DNA from: an uncultured Lentisphaeraceae bacterium
GTDB lineage: Bacteria; Verrucomicrobiota; Kiritimatiellia; RFP12; DVOR01
Assembly: GCA_949289005.1 (NCBI GenBank)
Contig: CASEMQ010000007.1
Coordinates: 1-64,000, forward strand
Direction of reading: 5' to 3'
DNA length: 64,000 nt
A program made the position numbers and the translations under genes. Every line of letters starts with the position of its first letter. Position 1 is the stretch's first letter. The notes under the pieces were generated by a model. It was not told where the DNA came from and ran no database searches. It was given only the letters and a program-made list of their open reading frames with translations. Shown one piece after another: positions 2,784 through 52,252 of the stretch.

Positions 2784-2860
2784 TGGAGCCAACTGACGGA
2801 ATCGAACCGACGACCTGCGCATTACGAATGCGCTGCTCTACCTAGCTGAGCTAAGTTGGC
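2784..2860 (-). tRNA. tRNA-Thr (anticodon CGT)
   Basis: The minus strand reads GCCAACT for the 5' acceptor strand, a D arm with AGCTCAGCTAGGTAGAGC, an anticodon stem GCGCA/TGCGC closing the loop TTCGTAA (anticodon CGT at 2824-2826, reading ACG = Thr), a T arm GTCGG TTCGATT CCGTC, the matching AGTTGGC, then T and an encoded CCA. All four stems pair. The 3' side faces the phage-like cluster, a common arrangement for tRNA-integrating elements, although no second copy of the tRNA 3' end is visible here. Confidence 0.95.
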
Positions 2861-2871
2861 AAAACGCGCAC

Positions 2872-2880
2872 ATGATACCA
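2872..2880 (-). promoter_or_regulatory. Extended -10 promoter of tRNA-Thr
   Basis: The minus strand reads TGGTATCAT, with TTGTTT as a plausible -35 (2895-2900) at a 17-nt spacing. The expected start point falls 5-6 nt before the tRNA 5' end at 2860. Confidence 0.65.
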
Positions 2881-3007
2881 AAAGCCAAGCGCGAAAACAA
2901 TCCCCTTTTTTGCGTTTTCGTGTCTTTTGCGTCTTCGGGCCTCATCCGCGGTCCCGGAGGCGTGCTTTTCCCCCGGGCGGCATTGCGTGCGAAGGTGGCC
3001 ACGGTTA

Positions 3008-3016
3008 TGCTATACT
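3008..3016 (+). promoter_or_regulatory. Extended -10 promoter (TGCTATACT), probably leaderless transcript
   Basis: TGCTATACT ends 10 nt before the ATG at 3027. There is no Shine-Dalgarno sequence between, so the transcript would begin within about 3 nt of the start codon. Confidence 0.6.
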
Positions 3017-3026
3017 GCGCCCCGTT

Positions 3027-4322
3027 ATGGCACAAATCGGCATCGAGGCGCGGCAGGGCCGCGGCCGACGGGCGCACCGGGACACGGCGCGTCCCCGCTT
3101 GGCCGCGCCTGAGGCCTGCACCGGCTGCACGGCTTGCCGTGCGGCCTGCCCGCGTGATGCCATCGTCATGGTCGCCGACGCCGAGGGCTTTCTGCGCCCC
3201 GCCGTCGAGGCCGCCCGTTGCGTGGGGTGCGGCGCCTGCGAACGTGCCTGCCCCATGCTTGCGCCCGGCGCACCCGACCTCGCGCCCGATTGCTTCGCCG
3301 CCCGCACCGGAGACCATGCCTTGCGCCTGGCCAGCTCCTCCGGCGGCATCTTCACCGAACTTGCCCGCGACACGCTCGCCAAGGGCGGCCTTGTCTTCGG
3401 CGTCATTCTCGAGCCCCCCGCCCTTGTCGCCATCCATGTCGCGGCGGAGGACGAAGCCGGCCTCGCCGCCATGCGCGGTTCCAAATATGTCCAGAGCGAC
3501 CCGCGCGATACCTTCCGTGAGGCCCGCGCCGCGCTCCGCGCCGGCCGCCCCGTCCTCTACAGCGGCACCCCCTGCCAAATCGCCGGCCTCCGCCGGTTCC
3601 TCGGCCGTCCCGACCCCAATCTCCTCACCGTCGAGATCATCTGCCACGGCGTCCCCAGCCCCGCAGTCTTCGCCAAATACAAAGCCGAGCTGACCGCCGA
3701 GCGCGGGTGCCCACCAGTGAGCATTTCCGCCAGGAATAAGCATTATTCCTGGCGGAAATGCTCACTGGTGTCGACTTTCGCCGACACCAGTGAGAATTGC
3801 GAGGACCTCTACACCAATCGCTACATCCGCGCCTTTTTGGCCGACCTCTGCCTTCGCCCCTCCTGCCACCGTTGCGTCGCCCGCGAAGGGCGCTCCGGCG
3901 CCGATGTCACCATCGCCGACTTCTGGGGCATCGAGAAGGTTTGCCCCGCGCTGGACGACGATTGGGGCACCTCCGCCGTGCTGATCCACACCGAGGCCGG
4001 CCGCCGCGCCTGGGCCGCCTGCGCCGGGCGCGTCGAAGCCGCCCCCGTCGCGCTTGACCAAGTAACCCAAGGCAACCCCGCTTACCTCCACCCCGCCCGC
4101 GAACCCCGCGGCCGCGCGTGGTTCATGACCCATTTCCGCGACAACCCGTTGGAACACACCTTGCGCCGTGCACTCGCCGGCTCTTGGCCCGAACGCCTCG
4201 CGCGGCACTGCCGCACCGCCGCACGTCGCCTCGCCGTGGCGTGCCTTGGCATATTCATTACAAATCGGGGGGGGGCAAGTAGTTATTTGCACGCCTGCGT
4301 GACCCTCCCGGCATCTGCCTAA
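3027..4322 (+). CDS. Coenzyme F420 hydrogenase/dehydrogenase beta-subunit-like iron-sulfur protein (polysaccharide-cluster type)
   Basis: 431 residues. The N-terminus carries two 4Fe-4S ferredoxin motifs (C31-x2-C34-x2-C37-x3-C41 and C65-x2-C68-x2-C71-x3-C75). The FrhB-type N-terminal region follows (SSSGGIFTELA, then GSKYVQSD, YSGTPCQIAGL and EIICHGVPSP), then the C-terminal domain (SARNKHYSW, LRPSCHRC, DVTIADFWGIE). Such proteins occur in surface-polysaccharide loci beside pyruvyl transferases and flippases, with a presumed redox role whose exact substrate is unknown; true F420 use is not implied. The ATG at 3027 follows directly on an extended -10 box. A perfect 28-bp palindrome (3712-3770) lies inside the conserved region around residues 229-248 without breaking the frame. 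Downstream are a small ORF and a MenD-like/epimerase/flippase set. Confidence 0.85.
   Translation: MAQIGIEARQGRGRRAHRDTARPRLAAPEACTGCTACRAACPRDAIVMVADAEGFLRPAVEAARCVGCGACERACPMLAPGAPDLAPDCFAARTGDHALRLASSSGGIFTELARDTLAKGGLVFGVILEPPALVAIHVAAEDEAGLAAMRGSKYVQSDPRDTFREARAALRAGRPVLYSGTPCQIAGLRRFLGRPDPNLLTVEIICHGVPSPAVFAKYKAELTAERGCPPVSISARNKHYSWRKCSLVSTFADTSENCEDLYTNRYIRAFLADLCLRPSCHRCVAREGRSGADVTIADFWGIEKVCPALDDDWGTSAVLIHTEAGRRAWAACAGRVEAAPVALDQVTQGNPAYLHPAREPRGRAWFMTHFRDNPLEHTLRRALAGSWPERLARHCRTAARRLAVACLGIFITNRGGASSYLHACVTLPASA
3712..3770. repeat. Perfect 28-bp inverted repeat with 3-nt loop inside a CDS
   Basis: Arms 3712-3739 and 3743-3770 are exact reverse complements (left arm begins CACCAGTGAGCATTTCCGCC). 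A third direct copy of CACCAGTGAG lies at 3785-3794, and GGTGTCG (3767-3773) pairs with CGACACC (3782-3788) to give a second, overlapping hairpin. The reading frame continues through the whole structure. Confidence 0.95.
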
Positions 4323-42191: not shown

Positions 42192-44963
42192 ATGGCCGAG
42201 GAACAACCCAAGCAAGACGCCCCCAAACAAGACGCCCCCACGTCTCCCAAGCCGCCCAAGACGAAGCAGCCGCCCCGACCCGAGGAGGATGGCCCCAAGT
42301 GGCGCCGCCCCCTCATCGTCTGGATCCTGCTGGCGGTTTTCGTCGCCTCGCTCATCGGGGTCTTCAGAGGCGGCAACGAAGGGTTGGCGACGCCGTTGGG
42401 CGGTGTGCCGCAGGCGCCGCTCACGCAGCTGGACTTCTGGGGGCGCGTCGAGGCCAACCGCGTGGACACGCCCGCGGGCCAGCCCGCCGGCAACGCAGCC
42501 TTGCCCGAGGTGCGCCTGGTGCGCGAGAACAATGGCGCCACCTTCATCGAGGGGCGCTGGGTGGAGCCCGCCAAGGACGGGGCACCCGCCGCGCGGGGCG
42601 CGCCGTTCCGCCTGAACGTGCTGGACGTGGGCGGGCTCGAGAACCGCCTGGCCGCCGCGGGCGTCAAGGTGATCCAAGAGAACCGCAGCAACTGGCTTGC
42701 CACCATCCTGGTCTCCATCCTGCCGCTGTTGCTCATCTGCTTCCTCTTCTATTTTCTCATCGCGCGGCAGATGCGCGGCATGGGCGGCGGCGAGGGCGGC
42801 CCTTTCGCCTTCGGAAAATCCCGTGCGCGCCGCCTGACGAAGGACGAGGCCAAGGTGCGCTTCAAGGATGTGGCCGGCGTGGACGAGGCGAAGGAGGAGG
42901 TGGCGGAGGTCGTCGAGTTCCTGCGCGACCCCAAGCGCTTCGAGACCCTCGGCGGGCGCGTCCCCAAAGGCATCCTTCTCATGGGCCCTCCCGGCACGGG
43001 CAAGACTCTCCTGGCCAAGGCCATCGCCGGCGAGGCCAACGTGCCCTTCTTCAGCATCAGCGGCTCGGACTTCGTGGAGATGTTCGTGGGCGTCGGCGCC
43101 AGCCGCGTGCGCGATATGTTCGCCCAGGCCAAGAAGAACGCACCGTGCATCCTTTTTATCGATGAGATCGACGCCATCGGCCGCACGCGCTTCACCGGCA
43201 TCGGCGGCGGCCACGACGAGCGCGAGCAGACCCTCAACGCCATGCTCGTGGAGATGGATGGCTTCGAGGGCAACACCGGCGTCATCGTCATGGCCGCCAC
43301 CAACCGCGTGGACGTGCTTGACCCTGCGCTCACCCGCCCCGGCCGCTTCGACCGCCAGATCGTCGTCGACCTGCCCACCGTCGAGGGCCGTCTCGCCATC
43401 CTCAAGGTCCACGCCGCCAAGGTCAAACTCGGCCCCGACGTCGACCTCCAGCGCATCGCCCGCGGCACCCCCGGCTTCTCCGGCGCCGACTTGGCCAACC
43501 TCCTCAACGAGGCCGCCCTCCTCGCCGCCCGCGAACGCCGCCACGACGTCTGCCATGCCGACCTCGAGGAAGCCCGCGACAAGATTCTCTGGGGGCGCGA
43601 GCGCCGCTCCCACACCATGGCCGACCGCGACCGCCGCATCACCGCTTGGCACGAGGCCGGCCACGCGCTCGCGCAGGTGCTCCTCGAGCACACCGAGCCT
43701 CTTCACAAGGTCACCATCATCCCCCGCGGGCGCGCCCTTGGCGCCACCATGACCCTCCCCGAACGCGACGTGCTCAACCGCACCGAGTCCGAGATGAAGG
43801 ATATGCTCGTGGTCCTCACCGCAGGCCGCATCGCCGAGAAACGCTTCACCGGCGACCTCTCCACCGGCGCCTCGCAGGACATCAAGATGGCCACCCGCAT
43901 CGCTCGCCAGATGGTCTGTGCCTATGGTATGAGCGATGCCTTCGGCTTCCAAGCCTTCGGCGACAACGAGGAACAGGTCTACCTCGGTCGCGAACTCGGC
44001 CGCAAGCAAGACCACTCCGAGGCCACCGCCCAGACCATTGACGCCGAAGTCTCCCGCCTCCTCCGCGAGGCCTACATCCGCGGCGAACGCCTCATCGCCG
44101 ACAACCAGGCGCGCCTCGCCCAGCTCGTCGACTACCTCCTCGAGGTCGAGACCGCCGACGGCCGCGACGTCGAGCGCCTCGTCAAGACCGGCGAGCGCCC
44201 CGCCCCCAAAACCAAGGCTCTCCCCATGAAAACACCCCGCGTCATCGCCATCGACGGCCCCAGCGGCGCCGGCAAATCCTCCGTTTCCCGCGCCGTCGGC
44301 GAGCGCCTCGGCTTCCTCCACGTCGATAGCGGCGCGCTCTACCGTATCGTCACCTGGCAATGCCTCGAACAGGGCGTGAACACCGGCGACCCCGCCGCCG
44401 TCGCCGCGCTCGTCGACAAACTCCAGATCGACTGTGCCGCCGAGGATGGCCGCATCGTCTACGCCGTCGCCGGCGTCCGCCCCGACAAGGAACTCCGCGA
44501 GCCGCGCATCAACGCCCACGCCTCCCCCGTCGCCACCGTCCCCGAGGTCCGCACCGTGATTACCGACCTCCTGCGCTCACTCACCCGGTTCGGCGACCTG
44601 ATTGTCGAAGGGCGCGACATCACCACCGCAGTCTTCCCCGACACCCCCGCGCGTTTCTACCTCGAGGCCGACCCCGCCGTCCGCGCTCAACGCCGCCAGG
44701 CCGAGGAAGTCCAGAAAGGCGTCGCCAACCAATCCGTCGAGGCCGTCCAAGCCTCCCTCCTCGCCCGCGACAAGATCGATTCCTCCCGTGCCTGCGCGCC
44801 CCTTCGCAAGGCCGATGGCGTCACCGTCATCGACTCCACCCACCTCACCCTCGAACAGGTCATCCAAACCGTCATCGACGCCCTCCCCGCTGATTGGCGC
44901 CCCGCGCCCGATGCCGCGCCCGCTCCGGAAGCCTCCCAAACCGAGGAAGAACCCCATGCCTAA
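42192..44963 (+). CDS. FtsH membrane protease fused to cytidylate kinase
   Basis: 923 residues in one frame. FtsH part (1 to about 678): two N-terminal transmembrane helices (around residues 40-57 and 175-195), Walker A GPPGTGKT from residue 265, Walker [15 protein letters not shown] region ([20 protein letters not shown]), zinc site H487-E-A-G-H491 with D563 as third ligand. Then at residue 679 [19 protein letters not shown] begins a complete CMP kinase (P-loop from 689, [39 protein letters not shown]). No stop separates them. Met679 has only a weak AAGG upstream and may act as an internal start. FtsH degrades membrane and regulatory proteins; Cmk makes CDP/dCDP. Shares 8 nt with purN. Confidence 0.9.
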
Positions 44964-45570
44964 ACTCCGCCTCGCCGTGCTCGGCTCCGGTGCCGGCACC
45001 AATATGCAATCCATCCTCGACGCCATCGCCGCCGGCACCCTCGACGCCGAAATCGTCCTCGTCCTCGCCGACGTCGAAGGCGCCCCCATCCTCGACCGCG
45101 CCCACCGCCACAACATCCCCGCACGCTTCCTCTCCGCCGCCCCCTACAAAACCAAACTCGAGGGCCCCGCCGAGGAAGCCTACATCCAAGCCATCCGCGA
45201 CGCCGGCGCCGATACCGTCGTCCTCGCCGGCTTCATGCGCATCGTCAAGCCCGCCCTCCTCGCCGCCTTTCCCGGGCGCGTCCTCAACATCCATCCCGCC
45301 CTCCTCCCCGCCTTCCCCGGCCTCCACTCCTGGAAACAAGCCCTCGACTACGGCTGCAAAGTCGCCGGCTGCACCGTCCACTTCGTCGACGCCGGCACCG
45401 ACAGCGGCCCCATCATCGTCCAACGCACCGTCCCCATCCTCGAGGACGACACCCCCGAAACCCTCCACGCCCGCATCCAAGTCCAGGAACACCTCGCCTA
45501 TCCCGAGGCCCTTCGCCTCCTCGCCGCCGACCGCCTCTCCATCCAAGGCCGCCGCGTCGTCATCAAGTGA
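44956..45570 (+). CDS. purN: Phosphoribosylglycinamide formyltransferase
   Basis: 204 residues. LAVLGSGAGTNMQSI (phosphate loop), VVLAGFMRIVKPALL, the catalytic NIHPALLPAFPG and VHFVDAGTDSGPIIVQ are the PurN signatures. It transfers a formyl group from 10-formyl-tetrahydrofolate to GAR in purine synthesis. Starts inside the end of the ftsH-cmk gene (ATGCCTAA overlap), so a nucleotide-metabolism pair (cmk, purN) ends this operon. Confidence 0.95.
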   Translation: MPKLRLAVLGSGAGTNMQSILDAIAAGTLDAEIVLVLADVEGAPILDRAHRHNIPARFLSAAPYKTKLEGPAEEAYIQAIRDAGADTVVLAGFMRIVKPALLAAFPGRVLNIHPALLPAFPGLHSWKQALDYGCKVAGCTVHFVDAGTDSGPIIVQRTVPILEDDTPETLHARIQVQEHLAYPEALRLLAADRLSIQGRRVVIK

Positions 45571-45881: not shown

Positions 45882-45911
45882 TTGATGGGGGGGGGGGTGA
45901 TATGCTATAGT
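45882..45911 (+). promoter_or_regulatory. Candidate phase-variable promoter with an 11-G tract in the spacer
   Basis: -35 TTGATG (45882-45887), extended -10 TGC-TATAGT (45903-45911), spacer of 18 nt of which positions 45888-45897 are all G (G-run 45887-45897, eleven G in total). Loss of one G gives the optimal 17-nt spacer. It precedes the gene for a 2088-residue secreted protein. Confidence 0.7.
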
Positions 45912-45985
45912 TGCGTGCCGTGTTTGCCTGGGGTATATCGTCGAAACCGGACATTCCTAGGCGGACAGGAATGAAGGAAACAGCG

Positions 45986-48900
45986 ATGATGAGATTGCGA
46001 ATAGGCGTTTTGCTGGGTGGCTTGGTCTGGGCGTCCCAAGTGATGGCGACTGCGACCACGGGCACGTACACGTTCACTTATTCCACCTTCGCGCGCGCGG
46101 GGTTGGGAACGCCGGTGCAGATTGTGGACAACCTTGCGACGTTTTCGTTCCGGCTTGGGGAGGAGAACTTCGACAAGGCCATCGTTCTGTCGGGAGAGGA
46201 GCGGGCGATTGCCTTTGTGCCGCCGGAGGTGACGGTGAGCGGCGTGACGCTGGCCATCCCCGGCAACGTCCGGCCTAAGACGGTGACGCTCGTGACGGCG
46301 CAGGGGCGCCTCCGCTTGGCGAACCCGAGCGCGGGGGAGGTGTTGGAGTTGCGCACGGTGGAGGGCACCACCCTCAACGTCCCCGCCGTGACCTATTCCT
46401 CTGAGAATGGCGAGATCCTGACGCTCGAGGCGGGCGACGCGGTGACGCTGGACTTCACGGAGGCCGCGGCGGAGGGCGTGGATGTCGGCCGCCTCTGCGT
46501 GGTGGCCGAGGGCGCGCCGCACCTGCGGGTGGAGGGCGAGGCGGCCGTTACCCGCCACATCCTGACCATCGATGATGGCACGGAGGCCAGCCTGGATGCG
46601 CTCCTCAAGGCGGAGACGGGTTACGCGGACGCGGGCGACCACATCATCGTGGCGGAGTTCGCGGGCGCGGGCGGCTCGCTGGCGATCGACCGCTCCATCT
46701 CCGCCTCCCCGCTCGTTTTGGGTTCCGCCGTCCCCGCCGATCAGGCGCGGGTTCACTTTCCCGGCAAGAACGGTGACGGCGAGGTCGTTACTTTCTCGGC
46801 CCCGCTGACCCTCCGCGACGGCGCGGGCGATTCGGGGGAGCTGACGGGGGCGCAGGGCGGCGTCTCGCTCTTCGGGCCCTCGGAGGTGGTCGTGCCGCTG
46901 AGCGTCTTCAATCCCTCCGCCTTCCTCTTGCAGTGCGACGCCACGCTCCGCACGCCGCTCCCCTACGACGAGGCCGGTGTCACCGGCTGGTTTCGCACGC
47001 ACAACGTCGTCATCCCCGCAGGGCGCACCCTCCGCATCCAGTTCGACACTACCGTCACGGACCAGGAGGGGCAGCTCCCCAACGTCGCCTTCGAGGCGCC
47101 CACCTCCTGCCTGGAGCTTGCCTCCAACGTCGGCGGCGCGGCCATCCCGACGAAGTTCCTGACGGCGTTGGGCACGCAGTCCGGCACGTTGGCGATCGAC
47201 CGCGACGTGACCGTGGCGGGGCAGGTGTCGCTCCAGGCCAAGGCGGCGGGTTTGGAGACCACGCTCATCCTCAAGGGCGGCACCTTCTCGGCGCGGGGCA
47301 TTAGCTTTACGGACGAGGCGGATGGTGAGGTCACGGGCTCCTTCGCCGCCGCCAACGTCCTGTTGGAGGGTGGGACGCTGTCGCTCTCTGGCGACTTGGC
47401 GCTTTGCGCCGCCGAGGCGGCCATCGTCGTCGGCGAGGGTTCCGCGCTGACGACCACCGCCATCGGGCCCTTCGCGACCGGCACCAGCACCGATGTCACC
47501 ATCGAGCAGGGCGGCACGCTGACGCTCACGGACTCGCTGGGCGGCGGAAGCGTCCTCGATGGGCTGGGCGGCCTGGACCTGCGCGTCCGCGGCACGCTGG
47601 TGTTGCAGGACGTCTCCTACTTCCAGTTGCTCCCCGCCACGCGGCGCACGCTTTACCTTGAGGGCGGCACGATTGCCGCGCAGGGGGATGTCCGGACCGA
47701 CATCGTGTGCGGCCTCGACGAGGGCGGCACGGAGGCCATCGACGTGATGAGCGTCTCCGGGGGCGGCACGCTCTCCGGGAACCTGACCGTGGACGGCGTC
47801 TCCGGCGCGGGCACGCTCACCTTGGGCGCGGGCGTCACCGTCGAGCACCTGCGCGACTACGACGGCACCATCGAGGGCACCGGCGCCATCGGCGTCATCG
47901 AGGGCTCGCGCGGCGAGGTCATCCTCGGCGGCGATTGGCTGACGGGCGGCAAGACCCTCGCGCACCTCGCCGAGATCGCCCCCGCTTACCGCGGCACCAT
48001 CGGCTTCACCGCGGGCACTGAGACGGCGCGGAAGGAGGTCAACTTCTCCGACGTGGCCGCCTTTTCCACCCTCGGCATGGCCTTCCGTGTGGCGGACAAC
48101 CAGCACATCGTCATGCGCCTGGACCAGTACGCCGACGCCACCATCCGCTGGCCCGTCGACCCGACGAACGTCACCCTCACCCTCATCGAGTCCGGCGCCT
48201 ACGGCGGCGAGGTGGAGATCCCCCACATCCCCGCCGGCGTCACGTTCGATTTCCGCGCCTTCCCCGAGGCGGGCGGCAACGCGACCGTGGAGAAGGGGGA
48301 CTTCACGCTCACCGCCAACGAGGACGGCGTCAAGGACACCCTCACCTGGGAGAACCCCACCTTCTCCGGCGCCGGCGCGTGGTTCGACGTGGAGTTCAAC
48401 GGCACCTCCGCCAACATCGGCTGGTTCACCCTGCGCAACCAGAGCGGCACGGCCGTGGCCAACGGCATGCTTCGCGGCGACACCGACGACTCCGGGCAGG
48501 TCGTGATGACCAACCGCGACCTCTTCGTGCCCGTGGCGCACCCCGCGGATGACCACGGCGGCCTGCCGTTGCGTTACTGCCCCTACGTCTCCACCGACTC
48601 GCTCGCCTATCCGGACGTCTGGAGCGTTGCCGTGCGCTTGACAGCCCCCGCCGCCGCCAAGACCTGCATCCTGGCCCTCGGCGGCAACTACCAGGAGGGC
48701 GACGCAACGGATGAGACCTTTGCCCTCGTTTTCGCCACCGGTGACACGGCCAACGAAATCGTCCTCTGGAAGTTCGATGGCGTGGGCGCCGCCGCCGTCC
48801 CCGCGGCGGACGAGGAGCCGCTCTTCCGCGTGACCCTTGCCGAGGCGCAGGAGGCCCTCCACCTCTTCTCCGTCGTCTGCGACGGGCAGGCCCTGACGCT

Positions 48901-51900
48901 CTACATGGACGGCGCCTACCTCAACCAGATCAACCTGCCCGAGGGCACGCGCCTCGCCCCCGGCCTGCAGGTGGGCCGCCAGCTCGGCGGCACCTCGCGC
49001 CCCGCCGGCATCACCGCCGTTGCGCAGGACGTGGACACGCGTGGGCTCGCGGCGGGGCAGGAGGGCGTCATCGACTACATCCGCTTCTACAAGGGCGCGC
49101 TCACCGACGCGGCCATGCAGGAGATGGCCGACCGTACGCCCTACGTCCGCGAGAACCTTCGCTACGTCCGCAACGTCCCCGCCGAGGGGGCTGACGGCGG
49201 CGAGACCTGGGTGCAGGCGGGCGCGTGGGTGGAAGAGATCTATGCGAATGGCACGTGGCAAGGCACCGGAAACACGGCCGCCCAGCCCGCCGAGGGCTCC
49301 ATCGCGCGGCTGTTGGTGGCGGGCGGCACGCACACCATCCAAGTGAACGTCGCGCGCGATCCGGACAACCACTTCTATTCCCCCAACCGCAACTATGCCG
49401 CGCTTGTGGTGGAGAAGGCCTCCGACACGAGCGCTGCCGGCACCCTCCATCTCACCCCGCTCGGCGTCACCGCCGATGAGGACAAGGATTCCATGGAGAC
49501 GCAACCGTGGGAGGATGAGGTCAAGGCGAGCTTGTGGTACACCACCAAGGCCGATTCCACCGCCGCCAACCGCACCGGCTTCCAATACGGCCGCCTTCGC
49601 TTCACCGGTGGCGCCGAGGATGCCTTCACCGACGCCGCGTCCGACGCCGATTTCCATGGCTCATGCTATCTGCTCCACAGTGCGAGTGGACAGAGGGTCA
49701 ACGCCCGCATCGACGCCGGCGCGTGCTACTTCTCCAAGTACGCCAATGTGGTCTTGCGGGCGCACGATGGCGGGCAGAACAACGCTCTGCGCGTGGTGGC
49801 GGGGATGTCGCTGACGCGCGAGGTGGTGGACGAGGTGGCGCGTTGGCAGCTCACCGGCCCCGTGGTCGTCGAGGGCACTTCCTCGTCTGACCACGTGCAG
49901 GGGCATGAGGGCGTAGAGGCGTCCCAGGCCTCCGAGGATGTCTGGGTGCCTTACTTCACCGCCAACTCCACGTGGAAGTTCTACGACGACACCCGCATCG
50001 AGGCCAATGGCGGCGCGGACAACCAGAACGGTCAGCTCAACGGCCTCTTCGCCCGCGGGGTGCAGACCCCCGGCCGCCTCTACCTCGACTTCACCGTTGG
50101 CCAGGGAGACGCGGACGACACCCCCAAGGCCGCCGAGGGCCTCTTCTCCGAGCAGAAGTGGTTCCGCTACGGCTACGAGGGCGACGCGGGTAGCACGGAC
50201 ACGCTCTCGGGCATGGCGCCGGCACGGGCCGAGGACACGGACTTCGACCAGGCCGTCGCCTTCCAGATCCGCCTCTCGCAGAAGACCGGCGACGTGGCGC
50301 TGACCATCGACAAGCACCCCACCGCCCAGGTGCAGACCTTCTACGTGGAGGAGGAGCCCAACCCGCCCGAGCACCCCCTCACCCTCAGCCTGACGACCGC
50401 CGAGGGCGTCGACCCGCTCCCCATCCACCGCACGGTCATCGCCGCCGCCCGCCTCGACGTCTCCAACGGCCAGAGCGCCGACAAGGTCCCCGGCGAGGCG
50501 AGCCACGAGGGCAACGCCCTCAACCTCCGCCCCGGCGCGGGCCGCCACACCCCCGTGCACCGCGGCCCCGACACCGCGGGGCGCGGCGCCTACATCGTCG
50601 GACACATGGTGGTGGATTGGGACTTCGGCGCGGAGAGCTCCGTCGCCGCCCTGGAGGTCGCCCCCAGGTGCGAGCTCACCTTCATGACGGGGCAGGACTT
50701 CCGCGGCTACGGCACCACCCTCGTCGCCCACGAGGGCGCGTGGATCCACCACACCAGCGCCGCGCCCTTCCTGGGGCGGGACGTCGCGCTCCACGCGGGC
50801 GCCGTCTTCGCCTTCCACGCCGAGGCCGCCTCCACGGGCGCGAACCTCGCCAGCGAGGGCGTCGTCCTCGAGGGCGACCTCACCCTGCACGGCTCGGCCA
50901 CGCTCCGCGCCGACCAAGCCGCCTCCGACGGCCACCTGCCGCACTTCACCGCCTCCGCCATCGTCGCCGAGCCCCTCGATGCGCCCTCGGGCGCGCTCAC
51001 GCTCACCGTCCACGCGCCCGAGGGCGTCACTTGGCACAGCCACACCGGCACGCTGACGGGCGCACCCCTCGGCCTGGCCAAGACCGGCCCCGGCACCGTC
51101 GACTTCTACCTCCAGACCCCGCCCACCGTCACCGGCTTCGTCTCCGTGGACGCGGGCGAGCTGCGCGTGGCGATGGCCAACGACACCCCCATCGGCCAAT
51201 ACGGCCTCCACGTCGCCGAGGGCGCCGTCCTCGCCGACAACGGCCTCATGCAGGGCAACGTCTCCACCCTCGCGCGCATCCCCAACGGCCAGACCCTCTC
51301 CGGCACCGGCACCCTCCGCGGCGGCCGCCTCCGCCTGGAGCAGGACGCCGCCTACATTGTGGATGACAAGGGCGGCGCCCTTACCGCCGAGGGCGGCATC
51401 GAGACCGACAACGTCGAGGGCGCCAACATCCTCGCGCGCCTCCCCGAGGGTTACGCGAAGGACACGCCCTTCCTCGTCTCCGGCCGCGACGAGCGCACCG
51501 TCCGCCGCCGCCTCCGCTCCCTCCAAGGCGAGACCCGCTGGGACACCGTGGCCTACATCGAAGGCGGTCAGACCTTCTACGCCGCCCGCCCCGCCGGCAT
51601 TCCCGCCCCCACCGACTACGCGGGCTACACGCCCGACGACCCGCGCAACGCCTACGACACCACCCTCCACGGCAGCCTCGTCGACCACTACCAAGGCAAC
51701 GGCGTCGCCTACGTCGGCGCCACCCAGGGCCGCACCCAGGCCGCGACCAAGCGCCTCACCGCCGCCGAGGTCAGCGACGTGCTCTACGCCTTCTCCGGCG
51801 TCTACGCCCTCCTCCCCGCCTCCGCCCAGACCGAGGAGGGCCGCGAGTGGATCGACGCGAGCAACCTCTACGTCGCCTACGAGTTCGGCATCGACGCCAT

Positions 51901-52252
51901 GGCCTTCGCCCGGATTGACGGAAAGGAACACGCTATCGTCCGCCTCCGCGTGCGGAACGCCCTCAAGGAGGCTTTCGATGGACAAATCGACCTTTCGGCC
52001 GAGGCCGTGAACGCCGAGGCCGACTTCCGCGCCACCGCCGTGTTGGGGCTCACCGATGCGCAGGGGAAGTCGCTGGACGGTACCTTCGAGGTCGCCGACC
52101 TCGCCGGCACGCCGCTCCCCGCCTCCGAGGAGGTCGCCCTCCATGCCGCGCGCACGCCCGGTGTCCGTTACCTGGCACTCCCTGTCGAGGCGGTGCCCGA
52201 GGACGGCCTCATCAAGGCGCAGGCTCTCCCTAGCGAGCCGCGGGCGCGTTGA
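45986..52252 (+). CDS. Giant secreted beta-rich protein with LamG-like domain
   Basis: 2088 residues from ATG 45986 (AAGGAA 7 nt upstream; in-frame ATGs at 45971 and 45989 also possible). Signal peptide MMRLRIGVLLGGLVWASQVMA. Residues to about 780 carry loosely repeated beta-helix-like segments (GGTLSGNLTVDGVSGAGTLT, GTIEGTGAIGVIEG) as in autotransporter passengers. A concanavalin/LamG-type domain follows (about 800-1050; TCILALGGNYQEGD, HLFSVVCDGQALTLYMDGAY, VIDYIRFYKGALTDAAMQEM), then more repeats. There is no beta-barrel, LPXTG or PEP-CTERM end; the C-terminus is a small beta domain ending LPSEPRAR, so its export route and surface anchor are unknown. Probably an adhesin or glycan-binding surface protein. 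Expression appears switchable through the G-tract promoter upstream. Confidence 0.85.
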   Translation: MMRLRIGVLLGGLVWASQVMATATTGTYTFTYSTFARAGLGTPVQIVDNLATFSFRLGEENFDKAIVLSGEERAIAFVPPEVTVSGVTLAIPGNVRPKTVTLVTAQGRLRLANPSAGEVLELRTVEGTTLNVPAVTYSSENGEILTLEAGDAVTLDFTEAAAEGVDVGRLCVVAEGAPHLRVEGEAAVTRHILTIDDGTEASLDALLKAETGYADAGDHIIVAEFAGAGGSLAIDRSISASPLVLGSAVPADQARVHFPGKNGDGEVVTFSAPLTLRDGAGDSGELTGAQGGVSLFGPSEVVVPLSVFNPSAFLLQCDATLRTPLPYDEAGVTGWFRTHNVVIPAGRTLRIQFDTTVTDQEGQLPNVAFEAPTSCLELASNVGGAAIPTKFLTALGTQSGTLAIDRDVTVAGQVSLQAKAAGLETTLILKGGTFSARGISFTDEADGEVTGSFAAANVLLEGGTLSLSGDLALCAAEAAIVVGEGSALTTTAIGPFATGTSTDVTIEQGGTLTLTDSLGGGSVLDGLGGLDLRVRGTLVLQDVSYFQLLPATRRTLYLEGGTIAAQGDVRTDIVCGLDEGGTEAIDVMSVSGGGTLSGNLTVDGVSGAGTLTLGAGVTVEHLRDYDGTIEGTGAIGVIEGSRGEVILGGDWLTGGKTLAHLAEIAPAYRGTIGFTAGTETARKEVNFSDVAAFSTLGMAFRVADNQHIVMRLDQYADATIRWPVDPTNVTLTLIESGAYGGEVEIPHIPAGVTFDFRAFPEAGGNATVEKGDFTLTANEDGVKDTLTWENPTFSGAGAWFDVEFNGTSANIGWFTLRNQSGTAVANGMLRGDTDDSGQVVMTNRDLFVPVAHPADDHGGLPLRYCPYVSTDSLAYPDVWSVAVRLTAPAAAKTCILALGGNYQEGDATDETFALVFATGDTANEIVLWKFDGVGAAAVPAADEEPLFRVTLAEAQEALHLFSVVCDGQALTLYMDGAYLNQINLPEGTRLAPGLQVGRQLGGTSRPAGITAVAQDVDTRGLAAGQEGVIDYIRFYKGALTDAAMQEMADRTPYVRENLRYVRNVPAEGADGGETWVQAGAWVEEIYANGTWQGTGNTAAQPAEGSIARLLVAGGTHTIQVNVARDPDNHFYSPNRNYAALVVEKASDTSAAGTLHLTPLGVTADEDKDSMETQPWEDEVKASLWYTTKADSTAANRTGFQYGRLRFTGGAEDAFTDAASDADFHGSCYLLHSASGQRVNARIDAGACYFSKYANVVLRAHDGGQNNALRVVAGMSLTREVVDEVARWQLTGPVVVEGTSSSDHVQGHEGVEASQASEDVWVPYFTANSTWKFYDDTRIEANGGADNQNGQLNGLFARGVQTPGRLYLDFTVGQGDADDTPKAAEGLFSEQKWFRYGYEGDAGSTDTLSGMAPARAEDTDFDQAVAFQIRLSQKTGDVALTIDKHPTAQVQTFYVEEEPNPPEHPLTLSLTTAEGVDPLPIHRTVIAAARLDVSNGQSADKVPGEASHEGNALNLRPGAGRHTPVHRGPDTAGRGAYIVGHMVVDWDFGAESSVAALEVAPRCELTFMTGQDFRGYGTTLVAHEGAWIHHTSAAPFLGRDVALHAGAVFAFHAEAASTGANLASEGVVLEGDLTLHGSATLRADQAASDGHLPHFTASAIVAEPLDAPSGALTLTVHAPEGVTWHSHTGTLTGAPLGLAKTGPGTVDFYLQTPPTVTGFVSVDAGELRVAMANDTPIGQYGLHVAEGAVLADNGLMQGNVSTLARIPNGQTLSGTGTLRGGRLRLEQDAAYIVDDKGGALTAEGGIETDNVEGANILARLPEGYAKDTPFLVSGRDERTVRRRLRSLQGETRWDTVAYIEGGQTFYAARPAGIPAPTDYAGYTPDDPRNAYDTTLHGSLVDHYQGNGVAYVGATQGRTQAATKRLTAAEVSDVLYAFSGVYALLPASAQTEEGREWIDASNLYVAYEFGIDAMAFARIDGKEHAIVRLRVRNALKEAFDGQIDLSAEAVNAEADFRATAVLGLTDAQGKSLDGTFEVADLAGTPLPASEEVALHAARTPGVRYLALPVEAVPEDGLIKAQALPSEPRAR

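Follow-up and report, generated by a model that had tools for sequence, protein, structure and literature searches.

In Neisseria meningitidis, a homopolymer separates the -35 and -10 elements of porA, and a spacer of 17 nt has been described as optimal (PMC7864442). Several genes for outer membrane proteins of Treponema pallidum, namely tp0126 and tprE/G/J/L, likewise have poly-G tracts in their promoters, and the tract in the tp0126 spacer works best at 17 nt (PMC7864442). The Vlp system of Mycoplasma hyorhinis, cited in a 2025 review, represents surface lipoproteins that vary in combination. Most known cases of multi-locus homopolymer phase variation come from well-studied pathogens, which, as the same review points out, may be due to a bias of the databases (PMC11868660). 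Akkermansia muciniphila has invertible promoters near PEP-CTERM genes (PMC11892184), and mononucleotide repeats have been proposed to mediate phase variation of Akkermansia genes (PMC3048395). Our literature search found no paper that links any name beginning with Kiritimatiell to either phase variation or PEP-CTERM. The mechanism considered here is already known from meningococcal porA and Treponema tp0126; what seems to be new is the organism, the family targeted and the scale.

Within the window, i.e. the whole 64,000-nt stretch of DNA analyzed here, a homopolymer of 11 G (45887..45897, + strand) lies in the spacer of a promoter formed by the -35-like hexamer TTGATG (45882..45887, +) and the extended -10 TGCTATAGT (45903..45911, +), which comprises TG at 45903-45904 and TATAGT at 45906-45911. 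Both elements were read from the sequence and recovered by a promoter scan, and the run was identified from the sequence and by G-run count and has counterparts across the genus. The first G of the run is also the last base of the hexamer, and the spacer spans 18 nt (45888-45905), exactly to the base as given in the first-pass annotation. The transcription start at this promoter is a predicted one. Upstream, a gene with a formyl-transferase domain detected by domain search (44602..45570, +) stops approximately 310 nt before the -35 element, which places the promoter in an intergenic region. Downstream, a probable ribosome-binding site, GAAGGAA (45973..45979, +), was recognized in the sequence, and the ATG of the gene for a giant exported protein (45986) follows 74 nt after the promoter. 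The run is the longest homopolymer in the window, where the number of G-runs drops from 127 to 24 and 3 for lengths of 5, 6 and 7 G, leaving the 11-mer far off the trend. In the window scan this was the only promoter of its kind, and a promoter scan over 1.6 kb returned this one site versus 0.2 expected. Two further features of the window were observed. A G9 run at 4267-4275 is coding and located at the 3' end of frame 2856-4322, so that a change in its length would alter only the C-terminal tail. In a single 923-aa frame (42192-44963, +), residues 160-659 form an FtsH-type AAA/M41 protease and residues 684-896 a cytidylate kinase; such a fusion of FtsH to CMP kinase is unusual.

The giant gene (45986..52252, +), characterized by translation and by domain and homology searches, encodes 2088 aa and starts with a probable signal peptide, MMRLRIGVLLGGLVWASQVMA (45986..46048, +), assigned in the translation from its composition. 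No Pfam or NCBIfam domain matched the protein, and a profile search against PDB sequences gave no match. No PEP-CTERM signal was matched by NCBIfam at its C-terminus, which ends LPSEPRAR, and no translocator beta-barrel family of Pfam indicative of a type V autotransporter was found. A structure model of the N-terminal part is beta-rich with weak similarity to beta-helix passengers, and in a fold search the similarity to autotransporter passengers was also weak, with query-normalised TM values of 0.2 or below. The adhesin-like character postulated initially for the product is unproven, as there is neither a Pfam match nor an autotransporter barrel. Matches at E<=0.001 were obtained in 14 of 59 related genomes, 13 of these 14 belonging to the same genus.

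To the 2.36-Mb draft genome from which the window derives (71 contigs, window included) we applied a survey of every run of at least 9 G on both strands, followed by reading of the surroundings. About 12 of the 43 runs are situated between TTGnnn and TAnnnT at promoter distance, where they read as G or C in the spacer, and are followed by an ORF. Of the remaining runs, some lie in coding sequence and a few located at contig ends resemble artefacts; a G16 at C14:42 and another at the end of C69 are of this appearance. In the genus, a search for CTTGnnn-N(0-6)-G(8 or more)-N(1-9)-TAnnnT detected about 75 distinct tracts, distributed over 13 of 17 genomes. The reversed pattern, which served as control, gave 1, and the poly-C version of the pattern 4 tracts, one of them a weak match. 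Searching 115 genomes of the order gave about 75 sites among the matches listed, again versus 1 for the reversed control, and among 289 genomes of the phylum the sites are found chiefly in the genus and in a handful of further genomes of its order, G018 and G034 in particular. All of these genomes are draft assemblies, one per species, so that heterogeneity is masked by the consensus and homopolymers may have been assembled at a wrong length. The view of a single site has to be replaced by that of a multi-locus system, and the statement that nothing comparable exists at other promoters is correct for the window but not beyond it, where counterparts occur in both genome and genus.

Relatives of the giant gene carry comparable promoters. 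A gene of G007 that is 69% identical to it is preceded by TTGACA-G10-TGGGTGTGG-TATAGT, and its paralogue on contig C67 of the same genome by TTGACA-C9-TTGGGAGAT-TATAAT. Further relatives in G005, G006, G007 and G015 have G9-G10 at the same place of the promoter. One relative possesses an interrupted run (GGGAGGGGGGG) in a 17-nt spacer equal to that of its uninterrupted counterpart, and several have ordinary tract-free promoters with spacers of 16-17 nt, which implies that the tract is not required. Another paralogue in the own genome (L064:3001, G000:C70, ~60193) has an ordinary promoter, but its signal peptide is immediately followed by a C9. At the assembled C9 length this paralogue is out of frame, and its relative in G001 (L096:1325) carries C10 and is in frame. 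The intragenic C9 was checked by hand; the genome is G+C-rich. Taken together, promoter tracts in relatives and the C9/C10 after the signal peptide indicate that the giant family has slippage-prone runs at the promoter or at the start of the reading frame.

Ten aligned pairs of homologous promoters with conserved flanks, most of them between species, were compared for tract length. The length differs in 7 of the 10 pairs. Tracts of the closest pairs, L144/L173, L162/L185 and L176/L186, are G9/G8, G10/G12 and G8/G9, respectively, with 0, 1 and 0 indels in approximately 100 flanking nt each (1 in 299 nt in total). The other three of the ten pairs are unchanged, all with G10 and a spacer of 17. 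Since the differences are mostly between species, they document fast length change, not within-strain switching. These data bear on the possibility that the G-run is a fixed promoter element, be it a DNA shape determinant or a binding site, either for a regulator or for an atypical sigma factor, and that its length does not switch. Retention of the tract at orthologous loci, the TGG flank before the -10 element common to many sites and the three pairs staying at G10 would be compatible with such an element. However, near-identical promoters differ in tract length, several loci, the giant paralogue among them, have a C-run in place of the G-run, the tract start ranges from the position next to TTGAC to one several nt further on, and downstream of the tract the flank can be TGG, TGATATGC or AAGGTGT. 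This freedom of base, position, flank and length argues against a fixed binding element, and we regard this explanation as unlikely.

When the tract was left free from 3 G upward, its lengths were bimodal with a main peak at 9-10 (27 of 56 sites), and all but one of the CTTGAC sites had a tract of 6 or more. This peak centers the spacers on 16-17 nt, a length found at 43 of 73 sites within a range of 14-21, which favors control by spacing as at porA and tp0126. Alternatively, the tract may switch, but act through a shifted regulator site or altered DNA melting, as discussed for opc and tprL. Tolerance of poor -35 spacing by extended -10 sites and spacers far from 17 nt (14 or 20-21) at some sites would agree with this route. 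Nevertheless, the prevalent 16-17 nt are what spacing control predicts, and relatives devoid of a tract have spacers of this very length; we accordingly give the regulator or melting route little credence.

Among 86 sites with a readable downstream gene, 76 encode a hydrophobic, signal-like N-terminus, as judged by a crude test of hydrophobicity only, and 39 a PEP-CTERM end. These ends are of the form PEPTALALLALG...RRR, and four of four tested exceed the TIGR02595 cut-off. The own genome contains 25 PEP-CTERM genes and one exosortase; a PF09721 exosortase is present in 14 of 17 genus genomes. Tract promoters of at least 9 precede 8 of the 25 PEP-CTERM genes, with two more carrying 6-7, compared to about 4 of approximately 1900 other genes (p ~1e-13 for the eight, the gene number being assumed). 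Small PEP-CTERM proteins are one main class of downstream products, and giant exported proteins including the relatives of the window protein are the second. The giant surface protein initially proposed as the target is thus one target, while the main ones are PEP-CTERM proteins. A run arising from assembly or sequencing error or as a neutral mutational by-product of a G-rich genome, as the draft state of the assemblies and artefact-like contig-end runs such as G16 might suggest, is highly improbable in view of dozens of independent cases in separate genomes at the same promoter position, almost none for the reversed pattern, and the strong enrichment ahead of one protein family.

A few sites precede genes of other kinds, which encode a HerA-like ATPase with conservation across three species as well as double-GTPase-like, lipoprotein-like and zinc-ribbon proteins. 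The tract promoters ahead of the HerA/FtsK-like ATPase belong to L045, L176 and L186, and those noted alongside the double-GTPase-like protein to L136 and L203; both products are reminiscent of conflict-system proteins. On the minus strand of L168 (G003:C1, ~35.8-38.6 kb) three consecutive PEP-CTERM genes were observed, whose spacer promoters contain one G9 and two C8/C9 runs.

We consider it very likely that slipped-strand promoter phase variation operates here by control of spacer spacing, the window promoter being one site of a multi-locus set. The spacer-homopolymer reading put forward in the first-pass annotation gains support from the roughly 75 such promoters of the genus, the differing lengths of homologous tracts and the exported, surface-type products. 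The G-run would act as a contingency tract, prone to slippage, within a promoter of the sigma-70 type, and gains or losses of single Gs at such tracts would randomly turn many surface proteins on or off. With dozens of exported surface-type genes carrying such runs in the genus, random switching is probable. With 11 G and a spacer of 18, the assembled state would give a weaker promoter than spacers of 16 or 17 nt; owing to its extended -10, the window promoter is predicted to be sub-optimal at 18 nt rather than dead. Many exported proteins of the genus would each be under their own G- or C-run promoter, in particular PEP-CTERM proteins, for which a single exosortase presumably does the sorting; consequently, cells would differ in their combinations of surface proteins.

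Furthermore, the pairs L144/L173 and L162/L185 each represent one locus in two species: promoter, signal peptide and PEP-CTERM end are nearly identical, but the mature parts have diverged strongly. Instead, the protein of L162 shares 75% identity with the product of L183, which is a different locus of the other species. These sequence relationships suggest that recombination may act on top of switching in the PEP-CTERM genes. A combinatorial coat, in which at least a dozen PEP-CTERM and giant exported proteins would have their own G/C-run promoters and exchange mature parts behind conserved promoter/signal-peptide and PEP-CTERM ends, seems to us an evenly balanced proposition. Altogether, an uncultured Kiritimatiellota lineage harbors a large candidate phase-variable set aimed at PEP-CTERM proteins of poorly known function, which, if true, would suggest that their cell surface is under pressure from phages, hosts or competitors.

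Among the described systems, the locus resembles N. meningitidis porA in placing a homopolymer in the sigma-70-type spacer of a gene for an outer-surface protein. At these promoters, too, -35 and -10 elements flank a long homopolymer, spacers lie at and around 17 nt and, between species, the tract varies faster than its flanks. The analogy to Neisseria drawn at the outset applies to the promoter-spacer mechanism but not to the host, a member of the Kiritimatiellota that is not Neisseria-like; unlike the single porA gene, about 12 loci per genome in an unrelated phylum are concerned, with PEP-CTERM and giant exported products. Treponema tp0126 shares the poly-G between -35 and -10, whereas the Treponema tracts comprise fewer loci of outer membrane porin-like families and their length variation has been measured, while here it is deduced between species only. 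Promoters of the M. hyorhinis Vlp genes carry poly-A tracts. As in Vlp, each member of a surface-protein family would have its own homopolymer promoter, with poly-G/C and PEP-CTERM proteins in place of poly-A and lipoproteins. In A. muciniphila, of the related phylum Verrucomicrobiota, PEP-CTERM genes also lie near phase-variable switches, which work by site-specific inversion and not by homopolymer slippage as proposed here. Together with the repeats proposed for Akkermansia genes, these invertible promoters imply that switching of PEP-CTERM proteins may be a shared theme achieved by different means.
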